NCBI RefSeq assembly: GCF_024498195.1
Contig: NZ_CP101824.1
Coordinates: 868,001-932,000 of the forward strand
Length of the DNA: 64,000 bases
Origin: Halovivax cerinus
Lineage (GTDB): Archaea; Halobacteriota; Halobacteria; Halobacteriales; Natrialbaceae
Direction of reading: 5' to 3'
The first letter of the stretch is position 1. Each line of letters begins with the position of its first letter. A program made the position numbers and the translations under genes. Below are positions 5,961 through 18,010 of this stretch, piece by piece. A model generated the notes under the pieces. That model was given only the letters and a program-made list of their open reading frames with translations, made no database searches and was not told the DNA's origin.

Positions 5961-7511
5961 TCAGGCCGGACCGGACTCGGCGCCGGCGAATTCGAAGCGG
6001 GCGCCGCCCTCCCGGCTTTCGGTCACGGAGACGTTCCACCCGTGCGCCCGGGCGATCTCCGAGACGATCCCCAGTCCGAACCCCGTCCCGTCGGCAGCAC
6101 CCGTAAATCCCATTTCGAGGACCTGATCGCGATCGTCCAGGTCGATGCCCTCGCCGTCGTCGGCGACGAAGAAGCCGGCGTCGACGGCGCCCTCGATCGA
6201 CCCGACCGTGACCGAAAGCGGCGGCTCGTCGACGGCGTCCGACGACCGATCGTCGCCCTCGTCCGGCCGTTCGAGACTCACGTCCGGCGACCCGTGCTCG
6301 ATCGCGTTCCGGTAGAGGTTTTCGAACACTTCCTCGAGTCGCGGGCGGTCGGCTTCGATCGTCGTCTCGGTTTCGACGACCAGTTCGGCCGCACCGGTCT
6401 CGACGTGGTCCCAGGCCGAGCGAGCGGCCTCGTCAAGCGAAATGGGCTCGGTCTCGCCGACCACCTCGCCTTTCTTCGCCAACGTCAGTAGTTCGTCGAT
6501 CATCTGATCCATGCGTTCGAGTTCACCGACGACCGTCGAGAGGTGATCGGCCGACGGATCATCGACGGCCAGTTCCGCGTAGCCCATCGCGATGGAAAGC
6601 GGGTTGCGCAGGTCGTGGCTCACGACGCTGGTGAACGACTCGAGGCGTTCGTTCTGCCGTTCGAGTTCGCGTTCGCGATCCTTCAGCGTCGAGATATCGG
6701 TGTATATCAAGTACCCACGTCGCACGTCATCGGCCCCCGTCGGGACCGTCCGAAGCAGAAAGGTACGCGGCCCCTCACCGGTCTGTCGAACGACTTCGGT
6801 GTCGTGACGCTCGCCCGCGTTCATCGCCGCCTGATATTCGATCGGCGCCGAATCCAGTTCGGGAACGAGCAGGGTTTGGACGCTCCGGTCGATCGCCTCG
6901 GATGGTTCGTACTCGAAGTGACGGACGAAGGAGGCGTTTACCCGCTCGATGCGGACCGTCTCCTCCTGGACGCGGTACTCGATAACCGCGTCGGAGACGT
7001 TCTCGAAGAGCGCGGCGAACCGATCGCGTTCCCGCGTGATAGCCGACTCGTGAGAGATCCGTTCGAGCGACCGTTCGACGTGCGTAGCCAGCCGTTCGAC
7101 CATCTCGCGATCGCGGTCGTCGAACGCGCCGACGGCATCCGACAGGATCTGAAGGACGCCGTGCTCGCCGATCGAAACCGAAAGCACCGAGCGGTACGCG
7201 TCGCTCGTCGGTCGGGCGGTCGTAACGTCTCGCACGTCGTCGATCACCTGCGACTCGCCCGTACGGTACGTCCGACCGGCGATACCCTCCTCGACGCCGA
7301 GCGGCGTCACGTTCGCCTGGAGAGTGCGGGCGCGGGCCGCCGCCGGGACGAATCGGTTCTCATCGGGAACCAGGACGCCACAGTCGGCGTACCCCAGTTT
7401 CTCGGCCACCCAGTCGACGGCGAGTTCGTAGACGTCGGCACTCGCTTCGGCCGTTTCGAGGTCGGCCACGAGATCGTAGAGTTGCGCACGAGCCTCGTCC
7501 GTACTCGCCAT
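5961..7511 (-). CDS. GAF-PAS sensor histidine kinase
   Basis: The 516-residue cytoplasmic kinase contains a GAF domain (~10-150, including VLVPDENRF and VLQILSDAVGAFDDRD), a PAS domain (~165-275), a linker coiled coil (~276-292), HisKA with the phospho-acceptor His299 in VVSHDLRNPLS, and HATPase_c with N-box FENLYRNAIEHG (~396-407), then DDGEGI and GTGFGLGI. It has no membrane segment, so it senses an internal small molecule or redox state. The open frame continues far upstream, but that part is the shadow of the next gene; ATG at 7511 gives a proper acidic N-terminus, and a CCATAAAGGTG promoter-like element lies ~35 nt before it. No response regulator is adjacent, as is common in haloarchaea. 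It lies downstream of the pseudo-CHAT genes in the same orientation (88 bp gap). Confidence 0.87.
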   Translation of the reverse strand: MASTDEARAQLYDLVADLETAEASADVYELAVDWVAEKLGYADCGVLVPDENRFVPAAARARTLQANVTPLGVEEGIAGRTYRTGESQVIDDVRDVTTARPTSDAYRSVLSVSIGEHGVLQILSDAVGAFDDRDREMVERLATHVERSLERISHESAITRERDRFAALFENVSDAVIEYRVQEETVRIERVNASFVRHFEYEPSEAIDRSVQTLLVPELDSAPIEYQAAMNAGERHDTEVVRQTGEGPRTFLLRTVPTGADDVRRGYLIYTDISTLKDRERELERQNERLESFTSVVSHDLRNPLSIAMGYAELAVDDPSADHLSTVVGELERMDQMIDELLTLAKKGEVVGETEPISLDEAARSAWDHVETGAAELVVETETTIEADRPRLEEVFENLYRNAIEHGSPDVSLERPDEGDDRSSDAVDEPPLSVTVGSIEGAVDAGFFVADDGEGIDLDDRDQVLEMGFTGAADGTGFGLGIVSEIARAHGWNVSVTESREGGARFEFAGAESGPA

Positions 7512-7599
7512 CGGGATGGTCGACCAATGGCCCGGTGGGTATTCACCTTTATGGCAATACACGTCCGCCGGGATCGAGAAGCGACAACGGAACCGACGC

Positions 7600-9603
7600 T
7601 CACGCGGCCGGATAGAACGGTTCGAGGTCGTCGGTGAAGTAACACTCCCCCTCGTAGACGACGACGGCTGGCGTCGCGGCCGACACCAGCGTTCGCAGGT
7701 CGCTCGCGTCGATGACCTGATCGCCCGGGTTTCCGACGAGATTCGCACCGGACTCGGGGAAGTCGGGTGACCACAACACGCCAAAGTCCGGGTACTGGAT
7801 GTCGCCCGAAAACAAGAAGTTCCCGTCACCCAGCGACGTGAGGCGGTATACGAGGACGTACATTTCAGACGGGTTTCCGACCTGGCAGAGGCCGTCACCG
7901 ACCGTGAGGAGTCCATCCGACGCGCCGAGGTACAGACGAGCGAGCTGAACCACGTGGTCGACGGCCATTCCCTCACCCAGCAATTCGAGCAGCGTTCGTC
8001 GGGTCTCGGGTTCGAGACGCTCCTGGCCACGCTGGGCCACCACCGCCACCGCCCCCTGGTCGACGAGCGCCGCGGCCGCCAGCAGCGAGGTAGGCGCGTC
8101 CAACAAGACCGCCCGGCCGGCACACGCCGTCTCCTCGATCGCCAGCCGCCCGTCCGTACAGACGAACGCCTCGCCGTCGACCTCGCCGACGTAGTGAACG
8201 AACTCGCCACCGGCTTCGAGGACCGATCGGAGTTCCGCGACGGTCGCGGCCTCGTAGAATTCGACGTCCGTGGGATAGGCCGGTCGGTGGCGATAGGCCT
8301 CGAGGGCGGCCTCGGCGGCGTCCGACCGTCGGTCGTCAGTGACGACGAGTGCAACCCGCTCCGGTATCTGTTCCTTGGCGTATCGGAATCGGTTCTTGTA
8401 GGCTGCAGGTCGCGACAGGAACGGACCGGCGGGGGATCCCGGGGCCAGCCAGCCGGTGAACGGACGGGTATAGCCGTCAGCGCCAGCGGTTGGGTCGCCA
8501 GGCGTCGGACCGACGCGGTCGGCACCGTCCGCTGCGTCGGACAGGTAGACCCGTGCGAGACGATTGGCGAAAAACGGCAGCGATGGCACGTTGTCGAACG
8601 TCGGTTCGACGTACATCGTGTAATGCCACGGCGGCAGGACCGGCTCGAGGCGGTCGTACGCCAGGTCGGGGTCGAGATAGACCGCGATGCGTTCGTCCAT
8701 GTCCATCCCCTGCAATTCGGTGACGTCGGGGCCGAGTGTCTCGAACGCCTCGAGTTCGGCCAGGTTCGCATCCTGGGTGGCCCACCGGCCGAGATTGTCG
8801 AGGAAGACGATCCGTTCAAGCAGATCGGCGGCCTCGTGCTGCAGCGCTGGCAACGGCGACAGTTCTCGTTCGAGGTCGACCGATGGAGCCCGAAGCGTAG
8901 CGCCATCTCTGTCCGTTACAGTCACGGTCGCACCGAGGTAGAACGCGAGTGACGCGAGCGGGATCAGTGCGTCGAGGCGGTCCGGGACCCGCAGTTCGAT
9001 CCCCGTCTGACCGATCGACTCGCGAACCGCCTCCGGAACGTCGGTCTCGTCGCCGAATCGGATCCGTGGCGGGTGGCCGCGACCGAGCGGTGAGGCGAGT
9101 TCTGGGTCAGTGGTCCGACGAGCGACGGCGAACGACTCGAGCGCTCGCGCAACGCCGGTAGCGGTCCGCGGGATCGTGACGGTGTGCGTCGGAGCGTCGG
9201 TGTACGACCGAAACCCGACCGTAACCGCCGTCGGATGGGGAAACGAGACGTCGACCGAGTGATCGGCTCCCCGCGTGAGCGTCGCGGTGCCGTCGAACTC
9301 GATCAGGATCTGAATCGCCGTCTCGAAAATCAGATGATAGAGGCCCGCCTCGAGCTGGATTTCGGTCCGATCGTTGGAGAGTTGCGTTTCGAACGACTTG
9401 TGGCCGTCCCGCAGGGTCCAGACCCACGCGTTTACCACCGGAAGCGAGAGTCCGTTCACCCGACCGGAAACCGTCAAGTCGACGGGTTCCGAGAGGCCGT
9501 CGCCGTCGGCCTGCCGGTCCCACCCGTTCGTCTCGACGGTGGCGACGTTGCCCACCGCGTCGGTCGCTCGAATGGTCGTATCAACGATGTCGAGGTCGAC
9601 CAT
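7600..9603 (-). CDS. CHAT-like protein, copy 1, with both catalytic residues replaced
   Basis: The protein has 667 residues. An N-terminal beta-sandwich (~1-150, opening with VDLDIVDTTIRATDAVG) is followed by a helical middle domain (~205-355, with LASLAFYLGA and PPWHYTMYVEPT) and a caspase-like C-terminal domain (~412-600). These blocks match my recollection of haloarchaeal CHAT-domain proteins. In active members the last domain carries a GH and an NAC motif. Here the lines read FVHYVGEVDG (Glu474 at the His position) and LLDAPTSLL (Asp502-Ala503-Pro504 where N-A-C is expected), so it should lack peptidase activity. The final ~60 residues (DASDLRTLV...FTDDLEPFYPAA) are shared by all three copies. 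It is paired divergently with the 75-residue gene at 9783 across 179 bp. Confidence 0.7.
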   Translation of the reverse strand: MVDLDIVDTTIRATDAVGNVATVETNGWDRQADGDGLSEPVDLTVSGRVNGLSLPVVNAWVWTLRDGHKSFETQLSNDRTEIQLEAGLYHLIFETAIQILIEFDGTATLTRGADHSVDVSFPHPTAVTVGFRSYTDAPTHTVTIPRTATGVARALESFAVARRTTDPELASPLGRGHPPRIRFGDETDVPEAVRESIGQTGIELRVPDRLDALIPLASLAFYLGATVTVTDRDGATLRAPSVDLERELSPLPALQHEAADLLERIVFLDNLGRWATQDANLAELEAFETLGPDVTELQGMDMDERIAVYLDPDLAYDRLEPVLPPWHYTMYVEPTFDNVPSLPFFANRLARVYLSDAADGADRVGPTPGDPTAGADGYTRPFTGWLAPGSPAGPFLSRPAAYKNRFRYAKEQIPERVALVVTDDRRSDAAEAALEAYRHRPAYPTDVEFYEAATVAELRSVLEAGGEFVHYVGEVDGEAFVCTDGRLAIEETACAGRAVLLDAPTSLLAAAALVDQGAVAVVAQRGQERLEPETRRTLLELLGEGMAVDHVVQLARLYLGASDGLLTVGDGLCQVGNPSEMYVLVYRLTSLGDGNFLFSGDIQYPDFGVLWSPDFPESGANLVGNPGDQVIDASDLRTLVSAATPAVVVYEGECYFTDDLEPFYPAA

Positions 9604-10010
9604 TAGTGGGGATTATAACAGGAAGGGGAAATGCGTGCCGGCCGGCGTTCTGATAGATCGGCGCGAGCCGACGCGATCGGTCGACCGGCCCGATCGAGGA
9701 CGGAGCTGTCGCGGATCCGAGATCCCGTCAAATCGTTCCGGTGTGGGTCGGGTTCATTCCGGGCGATCACGTCTCTGTAGGCATGCCCGTCACCATCGAA
9801 CCCGTCGATCCGAGCTACCTCCGGCCGGACGCGACGATTCGCGATTACGACGAACTCGACGAAGCCACCCAGACCGAGTTCGCACGCGCAGTCCGAGACC
9901 CGGAGGGCTGTCTCGACGGCGTCGAACCGGTCGAAGAGTACGTCAAATTCGTCGGATACTACCGTGTGACGACGTGTCGACGCGACAATTCGATCGCCGA
10001 TCGGGAGTGA
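9604..10010. repeat. Duplicated unit A: divergent promoter region plus small gene
   Basis: This segment is closely similar to 12062-12470 over its whole length: the divergent intergenic region (179 and 181 bp, sharing for example CCGATCGAGGACGGA and CGTCAAATCGTTCCGGTGT) and the following 75-codon gene. The duplication therefore copied regulation together with both genes. Confidence 0.85.
9783..10010 (+). CDS. Small partner protein of the pseudo-CHAT locus, copy 1
   Basis: The protein has 75 residues, is acidic and soluble, with blocks MPVTIEPVDPSYLRPDATI, DELDEATQTEFARAV and EYVKFVGYYRV. It is about 84% identical by eye to the product of 12243-12470. It resembles a small haloarchaeal family of unknown function that I recall as DUF7979, though that name needs checking. 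The ATG at 9783 is chosen because the paralogue starts at the same residue while upstream residues are not conserved. It is transcribed away from copy 1 and converges on copy 2 with 20 bp between stops. A regulatory or binding partner of the CHAT-like proteins is a reasonable guess from position only. Confidence 0.75.
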   Translation: MPVTIEPVDPSYLRPDATIRDYDELDEATQTEFARAVRDPEGCLDGVEPVEEYVKFVGYYRVTTCRRDNSIADRE

Positions 10011-10030
10011 CGGGCCGACGGGTCTGACGC

Positions 10031-12061
10031 TCAGGCGGCCGGGTAGAACGGCTCGAGGTCGTCGGTGAAGTAACACTCGCCCTCGTAGACGATGACGGCC
10101 GGCGACTCGTTCGACACGAGCGTTCGCAGATCGCTCGCGTCGACGACCAGATCGCCCGAGTTACCCGCGATGTTCGCCTTCGCACCCGGAAACCCGGGCG
10201 TCCACATCGCACCCACGTCGGGGTACTGGACGTCGCCCGATAGGGAGAACGTTCCGTCTCCGAGCGCTTCGAGGCGGTAGACGAGCGCGTACACATTCGG
10301 CGCGTTTCCGACCTGTGAAAGACCGTCGCCGACCGTGACGAGATCGTCCGACGTGCCGAGGTACCGGCGAGCGAACCGAACCGCGTGGTCGACGGCCATC
10401 CCGTCACCCAGTAGTTTGAGCACGGTGCGACGGACCTCGGCCCCCAGGCGATCCTCGCCACGTTGGGCAAGCACCGTCACCGACCCCCGGTCGACGAGCG
10501 CCGCAGCTGCTGGCAGCGAATTGGGTGCGTCGAGCAGGACCGTCCGGCCGGCACACGCCATCTCCTCGGTCGCCAGTGTCCCGTCGGTGCAGACGAACGC
10601 CTCGCCGTCGACCTCGCCGACGTAGTGGACGAATATCCCACCGTCTTCGAGGACCGAGCGAAGTTCCGCGACGGTCGCGGCCTCGTAGACGTCGACGTTC
10701 GCGGGGTAGGCCGGTCGACCGCGATAGGCCTCGCGAGCGATTTCGACTGCGTCCGCCCATCGGTCGTCGGTGGCGACGAGTGCGACGCGGTCTGGCGTCT
10801 GATCGTTCAGGTATCCGGTCCGATTCTCGTAGGCTGCGGGTCGCGACAGGAACGGGCCGATCGGCGTGCCCTGCGCCAGCCAGCCGGTGAAGGGGCCGCT
10901 ATCGCCGTTAGCGCCATAGGCCGAGTTGCCGGGCGTCGGCCCGACGCGGCCGGCCTCGTCGACGGCGCTCGGCAGGTAGATCCGAGCGAGGCGGTTGGCA
11001 AGAGCCGGCAGCGATGGAACGCGATCGAACGTCGGCTCGACGTACATCGTATAATGCCACTGCGGCAGGACCGTTTCGAGGCGGTCGTACGCGAGATCGG
11101 GATCGAGGTACGCCTGCAGCCGCTCGTCCAGGTCAGCTTCGTACAGGTGACCGACATCGAGATCGAGCGTCGCGAATTCGTCGAGTTCGGCCAGATCCGT
11201 ATCCTGGGTGGAGAATCTGAGGAGATTGTCGAGTGAGACGATCCGTTCCAGCATGGCAGCGACTTCGTGTTGCAGCCCTGGAAACGGCGACAGCGCTCGT
11301 TCAAAATCAACCGACTGCGCCCGGAGCGCCACCCCGTCTTCGTCCGTGACAGTCACGGTCGCGCCGAGGTAGAACGCGAGCGACGCGAGCGGTATCAGTG
11401 CATCGAGGCGATCCGGAACCCGAAGTTCGATCCCCGTCTCGCCGATCGACTCGCGAACCGCCGCCGGTATGTCGGTCTCGTCGCCGAATCGGATGCGTGG
11501 CGGATGGCCGCGCTCGAGCGGTGAAGCGAGGTCCGGCCCGTTCCAGTGGCGAGCAACGGCGAACGACTCGAGCGCTCGCGCGACGCCGGTAGCGGTTCGT
11601 GGAACCGTGACAGTGTGTTTGGGTGCGTCGACGAACGACCGAAACGCGATCCTGACGAGCGTCGGTTGGGGGAACGAGACGGTGACGGTCTGGTCGGGCT
11701 GGCGCGTGATCCGCGCTCGGCCGTCGAACTCGATCCGGACCTGTATCTCCGAGTCGAACGTGAAGCGATAGGTACCCGGCTCTAGCCGCCGGTCGATCCG
11801 ATCGTCGGTGAGTTTGGTCTCGAACGTTCGGCGCCCGTCCTCCAGTTTCCAGACCCACGTGTGGACCCAGGGAAACGAGAGAGTATTCACACGGCCGGCC
11901 ACCGCCGCGCCTCCCGAACCAGAGCCATCGCGGCCGACCGCCGAATCCGGAAGGTCGCCGACGTCGGCCAGCCGGTCCCAGCCACTCGTCTCGATGGCCG
12001 CGGTGTTGCCCGCCAGGTCGGTCCCGAGAATTGTCGTATCAACGACCTCGATGTCGACCAT
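10031..12061 (-). CDS. CHAT-like protein, copy 2, with both catalytic residues replaced
   Basis: The 676-residue protein is a close paralogue of copy 1 along its entire length, with a ~10-residue Gly/Ser-rich insertion near residue 45 (GRDGSGSGGAAVAGRV). Domain order is the same: beta-sandwich, helical middle domain with PQWHYTMYVEPT, pseudo-caspase domain, and the DASDLRTLV...FYPAA tail. The His motif reads FVHYVGEVDG and the Cys motif reads LLDAPNSLP, so the presumed catalytic dyad is replaced exactly as in copy 1. The loss predates the duplication or is selected. The start ATG at 12061 is at the same MVD(I/L) as in the other copies. It is divergently paired with the small gene at 12243. 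Confidence 0.7.
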   Translation of the reverse strand: MVDIEVVDTTILGTDLAGNTAAIETSGWDRLADVGDLPDSAVGRDGSGSGGAAVAGRVNTLSFPWVHTWVWKLEDGRRTFETKLTDDRIDRRLEPGTYRFTFDSEIQVRIEFDGRARITRQPDQTVTVSFPQPTLVRIAFRSFVDAPKHTVTVPRTATGVARALESFAVARHWNGPDLASPLERGHPPRIRFGDETDIPAAVRESIGETGIELRVPDRLDALIPLASLAFYLGATVTVTDEDGVALRAQSVDFERALSPFPGLQHEVAAMLERIVSLDNLLRFSTQDTDLAELDEFATLDLDVGHLYEADLDERLQAYLDPDLAYDRLETVLPQWHYTMYVEPTFDRVPSLPALANRLARIYLPSAVDEAGRVGPTPGNSAYGANGDSGPFTGWLAQGTPIGPFLSRPAAYENRTGYLNDQTPDRVALVATDDRWADAVEIAREAYRGRPAYPANVDVYEAATVAELRSVLEDGGIFVHYVGEVDGEAFVCTDGTLATEEMACAGRTVLLDAPNSLPAAAALVDRGSVTVLAQRGEDRLGAEVRRTVLKLLGDGMAVDHAVRFARRYLGTSDDLVTVGDGLSQVGNAPNVYALVYRLEALGDGTFSLSGDVQYPDVGAMWTPGFPGAKANIAGNSGDLVVDASDLRTLVSNESPAVIVYEGECYFTDDLEPFYPAA

Positions 12062-12470
12062 TAGTGGCAGTACTAATAGGATCGCAAAATGCGTGCTGGC
12101 CGGGGTCTCGATCGATCGACGCTGGCCGACGCGTTCGGTCGACCGAGCCGATCGAGGACGGAACTGTCGCGGAACCGAGATTCCGTCAAATCGTTCCGGT
12201 GTCGGCCGGGTTCATCCCGTCCGATCGCGTCGATGTACACATATGCCCGTCACCATCGAAGCCGTCGATCCGAGCCACCTCCGTGCGGACGCGACGATTC
12301 GCGATTTCGACGAACTCGACGAAGCCACCCAGATCGAATTCGAACACGCAGTCCGGGACCCGGAGGGCTGTCTCGACGGGGTCGAACCGATCGAGGAGTA
12401 CGTCAAATTCGTCGAGTACTACCGTATGACGGCGTGTGGGCGAACCGATTCGAACGCCAAGCGGGAGTGA
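12062..12470. repeat. Duplicated unit B: divergent promoter region plus small gene
   Basis: This is the second copy of the unit at 9604-10010. Both gene starts (the CHAT-like gene leftwards, the small gene rightwards) and the ~180 bp between them are conserved, so this is a segmental tandem duplication of a divergent gene pair rather than of single genes. Confidence 0.85.
12243..12470 (+). CDS. Small partner protein of the pseudo-CHAT locus, copy 2
   Basis: The 75-residue paralogue of the protein encoded at 9783 has the same start (MPVTIEAVDPSHLR), the same EGCLDGVEP block and the same EYVKFVEYYRM end of the fold, followed by a variable polar tail. It has no signal peptide or membrane segment. 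It is transcribed divergently from CHAT-like copy 2 and ends 68 bp before the stop of copy 3, with which it converges. Function is unknown; conservation of pairing suggests it acts with the neighbouring large protein. Confidence 0.75.
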   Translation: MPVTIEAVDPSHLRADATIRDFDELDEATQIEFEHAVRDPEGCLDGVEPIEEYVKFVEYYRMTACGRTDSNAKRE

Positions 12471-12538
12471 CGGACTACCCCCTTCGAACTGGCAGTTTCG
12501 AGAGACGGGACGGCCCGGCTGGCCGACGACACCGACGC

Positions 12539-14539
12539 TCACGCGGCCGGGTAGAACGGCTCGAGATCGTCCGTCCAGTAGCACTCGCCGTCGTAGACGA
12601 TGACGGCCGGCGACGAGTCCGCAACCAGCGTCCGGAGGTCGCTCGCGTCGACGACGACGTCGCCCGGGTTCCCCACGAGGGTCGCCGTCGCCTCCGGGAA
12701 ATCCGGCGACCACAGCACGCCCGCGTCCGGGTACTGGGCGTCGCCCGCGAGCGAGAAGGTCCCGTCCCCGCGGGCGGTGAGCCGGTAGGCGAGCACGTAC
12801 AGGTCAGTGGCGTGCCCGACCCGACACAGTCCGTCGCCGACGACGACGAGTTCGTCCGTCGCACCGAGATACCGGCGAACGAATCGAACCGCGTGATCGA
12901 TCGCCATACCGCCGCCCAGCAGTTCGAGCAGGAGGCGACGCGCGTCGGCTTCCAGTTCGTCGTCTCCCCGGAGGGCGACCGCTGCCACCGCACCACGGTC
13001 GACGAGTTCCGTGGCCGCCGACAGCGAGTCGGGGACGTCGAGCAGGACCGCTCGGCCGCCCCACTTCGAATCCGTCGGCGACACCGTCCCGTCGGCGCAG
13101 ACGAACGCCGACCCGTCGAGCTCGCCGACGTAGTGGACGAACTCGCGACGGGGTTCGACCGCCGCCCGGAGGTCGTCGACGGTGGCGTTCTCGCAGACGT
13201 CGACCTCGGCCGGATACGCCGACCGATCGCGGTAGACGTCGCGGGCGGTCTCGACGACGGCCGATCGCCGGTCGTCGGCCACGACGAGCACGGATCGGTC
13301 CGAACCCCGCTCGTCGACGTACGCCGTTCGGTTCTCGTACGCTGCGGGCCGCGACAGGAACGGCCCCGACGGCTCACCCTGGCCCAGCCAGCCGGTAAAC
13401 TGGCCGCTGCCGCCGTCGGGATCGGGGCGCTCGCCCGGAATCGGTCCGACAGAATCGATCCCGTCAGCGGCGCTCGGCAGGTAGACCCGCGCCAGTCGAT
13501 GGGCGAACGACGAAAGCGGGGGGACGTGCTCGTAGGTCGGCTCGACGTACATCGTGTAGTGCCACGGCGGCAGGGCCGGCTCCAGACGGTCGTACGCCAG
13601 ATCCGGGTCGAGATACGTCTCGAGGCGCTCGGCGAGGTCCGACTCGTACAGGCGATCGACGTCGAGGGCGAGCCGCTCGAACGCCTCGAGTTCGGCCAGG
13701 TTGGCCTGCTGGGCGGCCAACCGGACGAGGGTATCGAGGGAGACGACGCGCCGGAGCACGTCGGCGGCCTCGTGCTGGAGGGCCGGCGCTGGCCGAAATC
13801 GCCGGTCGATATCGACCGACGGGATCCGAAGCGCCACGTCGTCGCGGTCCGCGACGGTCACGGACGCGCCGAGATAGAACGCCAGCGAGGTGAGGGGAAC
13901 GAGCGCGTCGAGGCGGTCTGGAACCCAGAGCTCGACCCCCGTCTCGCCCATGGATTCTCGAACTGCATCCGGAATCTCGGTCTCGGCCCCGAACCGGATC
14001 CGGGGCGGGTGGCCGCGCCCGATCGGCGACGCGATGCCCGGTCCGTCGTCCCGCCGGGCGACCGCGAAAGACGAGAGCGCACGTCCGACGCCGGCGGGGG
14101 TTCGCGGGACCGTGACGGTGTGTTCGGGAATGTCGACCAGCGACCGGAAGCCGATCGTGACGACCGTCGGCTGCGGAAACGACACGGTGGCGCGTCGGTC
14201 GGCCCGGCGTTCGATCGTCGCGTCGCCGTCGAATTCGATCACCACCTGGATCGCGTCGTCGAACGTCAACTGATAGGCGCCCGGTTCGAGCCGACGCTCG
14301 GTTCGCTCGTCGGTGAGTTTGGTGCAGAACGTGCGCCGACCGTCGTCGAGATTCCACACCCAGGTGTGGACCCACGGAAACGACAGTTCGTTCGCTCGGC
14401 CCGAGATCCTGGTGTCGACGGGTTCTGAAAGGGCACTCTCGTCGTCGAGTCGATCCCACCCGCTGGTATCGACGGTCGCCTCGTTCCCCGCCGCATCCGT
14501 CGCTCGGATAGCGGTGTCGACGACGTCGATGTCGACCAT
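12539..14539 (-). CDS. CHAT-like protein, copy 3, with both catalytic residues replaced
   Basis: The 666-residue third paralogue is somewhat more diverged and richer in GC than copies 1 and 2. The same four blocks are present, including PPWHYTMYVEPTYEHV. The His motif reads FVHYVGELDG and the Cys motif LLDVPDSLS, so again neither catalytic residue is present. A Cys that precedes the motif in copies 1 and 2 (ETACAG, EMACAG) is not conserved here (DSKWGG), so it is unlikely to substitute. Unlike the other two it has no small gene divergent from its start; the 176 bp upstream hold no plausible ORF. It may be the ancestral or the solitary copy. Confidence 0.7.
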   Translation of the reverse strand: MVDIDVVDTAIRATDAAGNEATVDTSGWDRLDDESALSEPVDTRISGRANELSFPWVHTWVWNLDDGRRTFCTKLTDERTERRLEPGAYQLTFDDAIQVVIEFDGDATIERRADRRATVSFPQPTVVTIGFRSLVDIPEHTVTVPRTPAGVGRALSSFAVARRDDGPGIASPIGRGHPPRIRFGAETEIPDAVRESMGETGVELWVPDRLDALVPLTSLAFYLGASVTVADRDDVALRIPSVDIDRRFRPAPALQHEAADVLRRVVSLDTLVRLAAQQANLAELEAFERLALDVDRLYESDLAERLETYLDPDLAYDRLEPALPPWHYTMYVEPTYEHVPPLSSFAHRLARVYLPSAADGIDSVGPIPGERPDPDGGSGQFTGWLGQGEPSGPFLSRPAAYENRTAYVDERGSDRSVLVVADDRRSAVVETARDVYRDRSAYPAEVDVCENATVDDLRAAVEPRREFVHYVGELDGSAFVCADGTVSPTDSKWGGRAVLLDVPDSLSAATELVDRGAVAAVALRGDDELEADARRLLLELLGGGMAIDHAVRFVRRYLGATDELVVVGDGLCRVGHATDLYVLAYRLTARGDGTFSLAGDAQYPDAGVLWSPDFPEATATLVGNPGDVVVDASDLRTLVADSSPAVIVYDGECYWTDDLEPFYPAA

Positions 14540-14715: not shown

Positions 14716-15801
14716 CTACGCCTCGACGGTCTCCAGGACGCCCTCGCGGATGCGCAGCGCCTGCGGGAGGTAGAAGTCTTCGAGTGTCGAGAGCGGGACC
14801 GGCGTGTCGAAGCCCGTCACGCGGGTGACCGGCGCCTCGAGGTGGTACAGCGCCTCCTCGTTGATCGTGGCGACGATCTCGGCACCCACGCCGGCTGATT
14901 TGGGCGCCTCGTGGACGACGACGGCGCGGCCAGTCTTCTGGACCGACTCGGCGATGGTATCGACGTCGAGCGGCGAGAGGCTCCGCAGGTCGACGACCTC
15001 GACGTCGAGTCCGTTCTCTGCTGCGAGGTCTTCGGCGACGGCGAGGGCCGGCTGGGTGCTTGCCCCCCAGGTGAACAGCGAGAGGTCGTCACCCGCCCGG
15101 CGAATCGACGCCTCGCCGATCGGGACGGTGTAGGACTCCTCGGGGACGTCCTCGCGGAACGCGCGATAGAGGCGTTTCGGTTCGAGGACGATCACGGGGT
15201 CCGGATCGCGAATCGCGGCCGCGACGAGCCCCTTCGCGTCGGCCGGCGTGCTCGGCGTGACGACCTTGAGGCCGGGTTCGTGGACCAGTGCGGCCTCCCT
15301 GGACTCGGAGTGGTGTTCCGGGGCGGCGATGCCGCCGCCGTAGGGCATACGGACGACCATCGGGAGTGTGTACTGACCGTGGCTGCGACTGCGCATCCGG
15401 GCGGCGTGGCTCACGAGCTGGTCGTACGCGGGCGAGGCGAAGCCCATGAACTGCATCTCCGCGACCGGCCGCATGCCCGATATCGCGAGACCGATCGACG
15501 AGCCGACGATCGCCGACTCGGCGAGCGGCGTGTCGATCACGCGGTGCGGGCCGAACTCGTCCTGTAAGTGCTCCGTCGCCCGGAAGACGCCACCGTTGGT
15601 TCCGACGTCCTCACCGAGTACGAGTACGCTGTCGTCGCGAGCCAGCTCCAGCCCGAGGCCGTCGCGCACCGCTTCGACGAGCGAGAGCGACTCGGTCGGA
15701 CCGTCGTAGGTATCGAGGTCGATCGCATCGGCCGCCACGTCGGGTTCCACCTCGACCGTATCGTCGTCGGCCGATTCGGACGGGTCGGCCGCGGTGCTCA
15801 T
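14716..15801 (-). CDS. 2-oxoacid dehydrogenase E1 component, beta subunit
   Basis: The 361 residues carry E1-beta motifs: a ThDP-binding Glu region VLGEDVGTNGGVFRAT, IDTPLAESAIVGSSIGLA, EMQFMGF, RMPYGGGIAAPEHHSES, VVTPSTPADAKGL and a C-terminal transketolase domain ending FYLPQALRIREGV. With the alpha subunit it forms the alpha2-beta2 E1 that decarboxylates pyruvate or branched-chain 2-oxoacids and transfers the acyl group to lipoyl-E2. The start ATG overlaps the alpha stop by 4 bp, so the pair is translationally coupled. The N-terminal ~30 residues are an acidic extension. No E2 or E3 gene follows, so the remaining subunits are elsewhere or missing. Confidence 0.9.
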   Translation of the reverse strand: MSTAADPSESADDDTVEVEPDVAADAIDLDTYDGPTESLSLVEAVRDGLGLELARDDSVLVLGEDVGTNGGVFRATEHLQDEFGPHRVIDTPLAESAIVGSSIGLAISGMRPVAEMQFMGFASPAYDQLVSHAARMRSRSHGQYTLPMVVRMPYGGGIAAPEHHSESREAALVHEPGLKVVTPSTPADAKGLVAAAIRDPDPVIVLEPKRLYRAFREDVPEESYTVPIGEASIRRAGDDLSLFTWGASTQPALAVAEDLAAENGLDVEVVDLRSLSPLDVDTIAESVQKTGRAVVVHEAPKSAGVGAEIVATINEEALYHLEAPVTRVTGFDTPVPLSTLEDFYLPQALRIREGVLETVEA

Positions 15802-16946
15802 TCGCCCACCTCCGCGAACGCGTCGTCGCCATGGCGCTCGCGCAAGCCGTCGAGGTCCGCCAGTTGTTCCCGCAGGCGGTCGGTCGGCTCCTCGTAGACG
15901 TGCTCGAACATCCGCGTCGGGTCGGTCTCGGTGGCCTCGGCGCGGTCGATCGCCGTCGCGAGGCAGTCCTCGACGCGGTCGGCGATCTCGTCGGCGAGGT
16001 CGTCGTCCAGGATCCCCTCGTGGTAGAGGTACCGTTCGAGACGCTCGATTGGGTCCTGATCCTCCCAGTCCTCGCCGTCGTCCTCGCTGCGGTAGGCCGA
16101 TGGGTCGTCGGCGGTCGAGTGCGCGCCGAGGCGATACTGACACGATTCGATGAGCGTGGGCCGACGCTCGCCCTCCGCGGGGTGTTTCGCCTTCTCGACG
16201 GCCGCCCGGGTCACGGCGTAGACCGCGAGCGGGTCGGTCCCGTCGACGCGGACGCCCTCGACGCCGTACGCGTCGGCCTTCTCGACGATCGTCTCCGTCG
16301 CCGTCTGCGCTTCGAACGGCGTCGAGATGGCCCACTGGTTGTTGTTACAGACGAAGATCGTCGGGACGTCGTAGACGGACGCGAAGTTGAGCCCCTCGTG
16401 GAAATCGCCGGTCGAGGTCGCCCCGTCACCGAAGTGACAGAGGACGGCGCGGTCGTGCGGGTCCTGCATGGTGAACCCCCAGGCCAGCCCCATCGCCTGC
16501 GGAACCTGCGTACCGATCGGGATGTACTCCGGCAAGGCGTTCACGTCGTCGGGGACGGCGTACCCCTCGCGATAGCCGGAGAGATGCGTGAGTAACGCCT
16601 CGTAGGAGCGTCCGTGGGCGTGTTTCGCGGCGTGGTCGCGGTAGGTAGGGACGAGCCAGTCCTCGTCGTCGAGGGCGAAACTGGTCGCGACCTGCGACCC
16701 CTCCTGTCCGCGCATGGGTGCGTACGTGTCGATCCGACCCTGCCGCTGCAGCCCCGTCGCTCGCTCGTCGAACCGTCGGGCGAGGACGAGCTCCTCGTAC
16801 ATCTCTAGCAGCGCCTGGTCCGTGAGGGCCGGTCGCTGGGCGCCCGGTAGCAAGGTGCCGTCCGTGTCGAGTACCTGGACCGCATCGTCCGGCGGGCTGG
16901 TCGATTCGGATCGGTGCGTCGGTTCGGGTTCGTCGTATGTGCTCAT
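15798..16946 (-). CDS. 2-oxoacid dehydrogenase E1 component, alpha subunit
   Basis: The 382-residue protein is of the single-domain E1-alpha type. Visible motifs are MYEELVLARRFDERATGLQRQG, the ThDP motif GDGATSTGDFHEGLNFASV ending in CNNN, and the phosphorylation-loop equivalent YRLGAHSTADDPSAYRS. The DRLREQLADL tail is typical of the bacterial/archaeal PdhA and BkdA family. Substrate (pyruvate or branched-chain oxoacid) cannot be decided by eye. The ATG at 16946 gives an acidic leader of ~45 residues before the core. First gene of a two-gene operon with the beta subunit. Confidence 0.9.
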   Translation of the reverse strand: MSTYDEPEPTHRSESTSPPDDAVQVLDTDGTLLPGAQRPALTDQALLEMYEELVLARRFDERATGLQRQGRIDTYAPMRGQEGSQVATSFALDDEDWLVPTYRDHAAKHAHGRSYEALLTHLSGYREGYAVPDDVNALPEYIPIGTQVPQAMGLAWGFTMQDPHDRAVLCHFGDGATSTGDFHEGLNFASVYDVPTIFVCNNNQWAISTPFEAQTATETIVEKADAYGVEGVRVDGTDPLAVYAVTRAAVEKAKHPAEGERRPTLIESCQYRLGAHSTADDPSAYRSEDDGEDWEDQDPIERLERYLYHEGILDDDLADEIADRVEDCLATAIDRAEATETDPTRMFEHVYEEPTDRLREQLADLDGLRERHGDDAFAEVGE

Positions 16947-17548: not shown

Positions 17549-18010
17549 GTGGTTCACCCGACCCTCGACCACACCGGCACCGCTCCGTCAGTCGCGTACG
17601 TCCTCGTACTCGCGTCACTGGTCGGACTCGCGGTCGGGCTGACCGCCTGGACCGTCGCCGGCGGTGCGGGACTATCGTTGGACGGGACTGCCGACGCCGA
17701 TCCACACGGAACCGAGGACGGAATCGATGGGCTCGCGACCGACGCCCCGGTCGAAAACGAGACCGGGGACGACGGCGGAGACGCACCCGACGGATCGGGA
17801 TCGGAAGACGACGGGCCTGAGGAACGGGACGACGAAGACGACGACTCTGACGAAAGGGGAGACGAGGACGAGCGGGACGACGAAGACGACGACTCTGACG
17901 AAAGGGGAGACGAGGACGAGCGGGACGACGAAGACGACGACTCTGACGATCTGCTAGATGCACTCTTGGAGGCGTTCGAGGACGAATCGGTCGAGGACGA
18001 CGGCGAGTGA
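17549..18010 (+). CDS. Small membrane-anchored protein with acidic repeat tail
   Basis: The 153 residues from GTG at 17549 hold one hydrophobic segment (~15-38, SVAYVLVLASLVGLAVGLTAW) and then an extremely Asp/Glu-rich tail. The tail contains a 16-residue repeat of the form RDDEDDDSDERGDEDE, 2.6 copies, and ends in a short amphipathic helix (DDLLDALLEAFED). The layout suggests an anchor with an acidic exposed domain, perhaps cation-binding; that is inference. An ATG at 17505 in another frame encodes MSPSNDGEGRGSGIQWFTR before the frames would need to switch, so a frameshift near 17550 that hides a longer N-terminus is possible. No family is recognised. Confidence 0.5.
   Translation: MVHPTLDHTGTAPSVAYVLVLASLVGLAVGLTAWTVAGGAGLSLDGTADADPHGTEDGIDGLATDAPVENETGDDGGDAPDGSGSEDDGPEERDDEDDDSDERGDEDERDDEDDDSDERGDEDERDDEDDDSDDLLDALLEAFEDESVEDDGE
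17825..17948 (+). repeat. 48-bp tandem coding repeat, 2.6 units
   Basis: Units at 17825-17872 and 17873-17920 are identical and a third, partial one runs 17921-17948. Each encodes the 16-residue acidic repeat of the membrane-anchored protein. Identity at DNA level indicates recent expansion. Confidence 0.9.

Follow-up and report, generated by a model that had tools for sequence, protein, structure and literature searches.

The Craspase TPR-CHAT protein (Csx29) and SAVED-CHAT act as proteases in defence of the CRISPR or CBASS type, and both animals and bacteria are known to have pseudo-proteases. Here we describe three tandem genes (W1, W2 and W3) of the haloarchaeon Halovivax cerinus, whose products lack the catalytic dyad of the CHAT family. 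They lie in a stretch of 64,000 nucleotides (NCBI RefSeq assembly GCF_024498195.1, contig NZ_CP101824.1, positions 868,001 to 932,000 of the forward strand), referred to as the window, whose own numbering is used below. We propose, with a probability of roughly 0.62, that W1–W3 are non-proteolytic pseudo-CHATs acting as dedicated regulatory or adaptor partner subunits of the neighbouring histidine kinase, presumably by direct binding. The bacterial pseudo-orthocaspases are similar to these proteins in being catalytically deficient caspase folds that form conserved clades, with Tyr and Ser in place of the dyad; they differ in being orthocaspases rather than CHAT proteins and in occurring mainly in Alphaproteobacteria and Cyanobacteria, and the part of the 2019 survey available to us mentions no kinase partner for them (PMC6426788). 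That survey gives the His-Cys dyad in 93 of 93 archaeal sequences and calls pseudo-orthocaspases absent from Archaea (PMC6426788). A literature search, incomplete in its coverage, found no description of a module of a pseudo-CHAT and a histidine kinase.

W1 (667 amino acids; 7600–9603), W2 (676 amino acids; 10031–12061) and W3 (666 amino acids; 12539–14539) are all encoded on the minus strand and are paralogues, with 64–69% pairwise identity and a mean column identity of 81%. A preliminary description of this DNA had reported three tandem paralogues of about 670 residues and had placed the catalytic His and Cys positions at their GE and DAP/DVP sites. The open reading frames (ORFs) are present as described and share the motifs WHYTMYVEPT, FVHYVGE and LLD[AV]P, and the placement of the two sites is exact in alignment with active relatives, which have HYIGHCE...FFLNACGS where the window proteins have HYVGE[VL]D...LLD[AV]P.S. 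The dyad is replaced in all three copies, His by Glu and Cys by Pro. In W1 these are Glu474 and Pro504, with Asp502 at the position of an Asn that active members also conserve; in W2 they are Glu483 (minus-strand codon at 10613–10615) and Pro513 (10523–10525), with Asp511 (10529–10531) at the Asn position.

Tabulation of 159 distinct family members from the Halobacteria, 118 with the Cys and 41 without, agrees with this assignment. All 118 Cys-keeping (active) members have the His, and all have the Asn two residues ahead of the Cys. The 41 Cys-less proteins consist of 38 in one clade that includes W1–W3, a separate tandem pair in the H. cerinus genome, and one sequence fragment. Within the clade the Cys position has Cys in none of the 38 proteins, and the His position is occupied by Asp in 17, by Glu in eight and otherwise by a mixture that includes Asn, Pro, Arg, Thr and Ser, with His found once. 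Fifteen positions that are invariant in active members have been lost by the clade, and the Asn position alone received a conserved replacement, being Asp in 34 members, Glu in three and Pro in one (acidic in 37 of 38), with an entropy of 0.57 bits compared to 1.9–3.3 bits at the other 14. The clade also has residues of its own, namely G27 (100%), D29 (92%), R57 (97%), D75 (89%), Y673 (92%) and P674 (97%), each of which occurs in at most 10% of active members. H479 and C491 of W2, which lie next to the true dyad, are likewise strongly conserved in the clade, but are no new feature of it, because active members conserve both just as well. An alternative dyad, raised for His470 with another conserved Cys, was rejected: this His stands four residues before the true one and is retained by 100% of active members and by 92% of dead ones, and Cys491 is conserved in active members too.

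A cytoplasmic sensor histidine kinase of 516 amino acids (5961–7511, minus strand; GAF-PAS-HisKA-HATPase_c) is encoded 88 bp past the end of W1 on the same strand, with its phospho-acceptor motif SHDLRNP intact. Neighbouring genes were called from ORFs and profiles, without curated annotation, and the search for kinases used a profile of the window kinase that picks up unlinked kinases of the H. cerinus genome as well, at similar scores. All 35 pseudo-CHAT arrays, which together hold the 38 clade members, directly adjoin a same-strand kinase with gaps of up to 209 bp, and the other clade members of the H. cerinus genome are among them; the loci of active members contain a kinase in none of 118 cases, 78 of which have flanking sequence of at least 4 kb at either end. 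The Fisher p value for this linkage is 5e-30, uncorrected for shared ancestry. Since the arrays do share ancestry, the better argument is that linkage has persisted through divergence and changes of gene order: the kinase is upstream in 27 arrays and downstream in eight, indicating that the association outlived rearrangement. The motif HDLRNP is intact in all of the linked kinases, and GAF, PAS, HisKA and HATPase_c domains are present in 10 of 10 scanned. The linked kinases also have in common GAF-PAS residues seldom present in the other kinases of the H. cerinus genome, a comparison set that includes fragments, and four of the five kinases in this genome that are closest to the window kinase (itself counted) are linked to pseudo-CHATs.

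The caspase-like last domain suggested in the preliminary description is borne out by structure prediction, and the W1–W3 family is predicted with high confidence to carry a caspase/CHAT fold. This assignment rests on structure models, because sequence searches of the PDB with profiles gave as their best match only a CHAT protein at E 0.66, and chance matches with the active-member profile. The AlphaFold2 model of W2 (51-row alignment) has a predicted local distance difference test score (pLDDT) of 87.1 and a predicted template modelling score (pTM) of 0.89, and consists of a beta-rich N-terminal domain (residues 1–153), an alpha/beta middle, a caspase-like region of two subdomains (333–586), and a C-terminal beta part that ends in FYPAA. 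From residue 333 the model matches the solved structures of gingipain RgpB (Z 18.3), Kgp (Z 17.9), separase (Z 14.1), SAVED-CHAT (Z 13.9, root-mean-square deviation 2.6 over 162 residues), DdvA (Z 13.4) and Craspase TPR-CHAT (Z 12.7). The caspase-like region is also present in the model of an active relative, L114 from Halovivax sp. KZCA124 (pLDDT 87.2, pTM 0.87), which matches RgpB (Z 20.7), SAVED-CHAT (Z 18.9) and separase (Z 17.9). Although their fold resembles that of the Craspase and SAVED-CHAT proteases, the window proteins lack the dyad, have no TPR or SAVED domain in a Pfam scan, and have a single weak and unconvincing match among the PADLOC models (PDC-S42 at E 0.07, to W2). Searches with W1–W3 gave no Pfam match at E up to 10, CHAT (PF12770) included, and no NCBIfam model match; PF12770 does match 19 of the 51 members of the family alignment, with a best E of 1.9e-5. 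DdvA (8rw5, 8rot) offers a parallel in having a caspase-like domain within a regulatory protein, but is a transmembrane anti-sigma factor according to its entry title and not a histidine kinase partner.

Window proteins and intact-dyad members are homologous over nearly their full length (tblastn E down to 3e-95) and fall in a common tree. At least one family member is present in all 125 searched genomes of the taxonomic family of H. cerinus, and the three-copy profile has 11 matches in its own genome (3.9 Mb), some of them being pieces of one protein. Scanning genome contigs with the three-copy alignment yielded no relatives, its peptide patterns being specific to the window copies, and a broader alignment found 309. 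A scan across the Halobacteria gave 80 loci, 78 with the dyad kept; the class-wide search scored four candidates per genome, so more clade members probably exist. Clade members are mostly 25–36% identical to W2. In a tree of 76 proteins, with a midpoint root set for drawing only, the 38 Cys-less proteins make up one side of one branch with a support of 100, requiring one change of state against an average of 26 when the Cys and no-Cys labels are shuffled. W1–W3 are placed deep inside this clade. The simplest reading of the tree as rooted for drawing is that the common ancestor of the 38 proteins lost the dyad once, well ahead of the triplication in the window, since active members lie to either side of the midpoint root. 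The consistent loss in three copies, which the preliminary description had taken as an argument against decay, is thus one event inherited by all three. W3 pairs with the single copy of the sister species (G031; 80% identity) and W1 with W2, suggesting that duplication is older than the split of the two species.

W1–W3 are under purifying selection, with ratios of nonsynonymous to synonymous substitution rates (dN/dS, NG86) of 0.30–0.40 for all pairs of window copies and for the sister-species pair. They are pseudoenzymes in the sense of maintained genes without the catalytic residues of their enzyme family. Fold, dyad loss and dN/dS uphold that part of the preliminary description in which a maintained pseudo-protease family was proposed. 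That the proteins are instead decaying, functionless remnants of an active protease is contradicted by the data and highly improbable: the reading frames are intact, dN/dS is below 1 in every region, and the newly conserved residues are kept across the clade, although the CHAT region has somewhat higher dN/dS (0.37–0.51, NG86, window pairs) than the middle region.

Regulation of an active CHAT protein, the function suggested in the preliminary description, fares less well. As sensors, decoys or scaffolds, the pseudo-CHATs would sequester or inhibit an active CHAT protease whose gene lies elsewhere in the genome. Pseudo-proteases do often regulate active relatives, and two family members of the H. 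cerinus genome (L006 and L009) have kept the dyad. The active proteins, such as L114 and L006, are similar to the window proteins in full-length architecture and fold, at about 30% identity, but occupy a neighbourhood of their own, in which a tbsP-type transcription regulator gene is near the active CHAT in 74 of 78 long-flank loci (L101–L180; also L043:10399–11217) and glyA/folD-type genes, named from their sequences, are beside many. No link to pseudo-CHAT genes was found at active CHAT loci. Because every pseudo-CHAT array adjoins a kinase and active members sit elsewhere, we favour kinase partnership, and regard control of a distant active CHAT as less likely than this and improbable overall. 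If this is right, the same genomes would offer defined before and after states, in the form of an active family that is widely kept and one dead, derived clade. The active family is also a candidate source for the high caspase-like activity of Haloferax volcanii, for which the gene was not known (PMC3615174).

If W1–W3 are partners of the kinase, a pseudo-CHAT would probably bind it through the old substrate cleft, which may act as a protein-binding surface, and/or through clade-specific N- and C-terminal elements; candidate contacts are the FYP tail conserved at the C-terminus and the residues of the N-terminal domain. It could then set kinase activity upon a signal bound either by its own N-terminal domain or by the GAF-PAS part of the kinase, and the tandem copies might be several alternative partners for one kinase. 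A protease fold would thereby have been re-used as a part of two-component signalling, and a fold mainly associated with cell death and defence would serve in sensing. The link is directly testable, as haloarchaea can be cultured and genetically manipulated.

The newly conserved Asp invites a more specific interpretation, in which the dead site receives a phosphoryl group or conformational signal from the kinase, giving a receiver-like function derived from a protease. The core of the caspase fold is an alpha/beta sheet domain, and in the W2 model strands 475–481 and 505–511 end at or beside Glu483 and Asp511, which puts these residues at the C-terminal ends of neighbouring strands, as in the acidic pocket of a receiver. 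In addition to the acidic residue kept at the Asn position, 25 of 38 members have Asp or Glu at the His position, and among the conserved neighbours of the arrays, all of which adjoin a kinase, no receiver gene stood out. But W1–W3 have no Response_reg match (Pfam, E up to 10), the acid at the His position is swapped for Asn, Pro, Arg, Thr, Ser or His in some members, and acidic residues are abundant in haloarchaeal proteins generally, such that both phosphoryl transfer to the pseudo-CHAT and the broader receiver-like role appear unlikely. A different enzyme activity, controlled by the kinase and based in the former cleft on either the conserved Asp or the H479/C491 pair, is a still more doubtful proposition; the clade does conserve D511, H479 and C491 strongly, but active members keep the latter two equally well, the His position varies, and the NCBIfam and PADLOC results suggest no activity.

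Several observations weigh against kinase partnership itself. The 35 arrays are not independent, because linkage may have one main origin. The kinase tree agrees with the pseudo-CHAT tree (r 0.80, 0 of 5000 permutations), but such agreement is expected anyway for linked genes. In the kinase tree, linked kinases are somewhat mixed with unlinked ones, W2 and W3 lie 2.5–5 kb from the kinase, and a fusion of kinase and pseudo-CHAT was sought and none found. A close relative of the window kinase elsewhere in the genome (L264; G000:C1:1076266–1077786, where G000 is the H. cerinus genome) has no adjoining pseudo-CHAT.

This last kinase is possibly an orphan of the module. The linked kinases do not trace cleanly to a single origin, as there are at least three changes between linked and unlinked labels on starred branches of the kinase tree. 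One pseudo-CHAT subclade occupies a conserved chromosomal place adjoining a purA-like (adenylosuccinate synthase) gene, with 16 loci including L044. At another locus (L051; G099:C3, 240,954 bases) the kinase/pseudo-CHAT pair is apparently plasmid-borne, and the module may thus be able to move.

The separate Cys-less pair in the H. cerinus genome (locus L045, G000:C1:292000–311000; pair at 299312–303018) consists of two tandem dyad-less paralogues, L008 and L010, with ORFs at about 6824–11637 of the locus on the plus strand. These are outside the 38-member clade, have Ala at the Asn position and have no kinase neighbour, and represent a second, independent loss of the dyad. The gene ahead of them appears, from its sequence, to encode an HTH_10-type regulator.

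What is repeated in the window is the whole unit, which takes in a small ORF of 75 codons on the plus strand; its copies are at 9783–10010 between W1 and W2 and at 12243–12470 between W2 and W3. The two small ORFs are 79% identical, with dN 0.11 and dS 0.17; none was found in the sister species, and elsewhere there are weak similarities with E of about 4e-4 to 3e-3. Directly upstream of W3 are pyruvate dehydrogenase-type E1 alpha/beta-like genes (14716–16946, minus strand), and this stretch also adjoins the single pseudo-CHAT copy in the sister species. Further along, a plus-strand ORF at 17549–18010 has a possible membrane segment followed by a highly acidic, repetitive D/E-rich tail.

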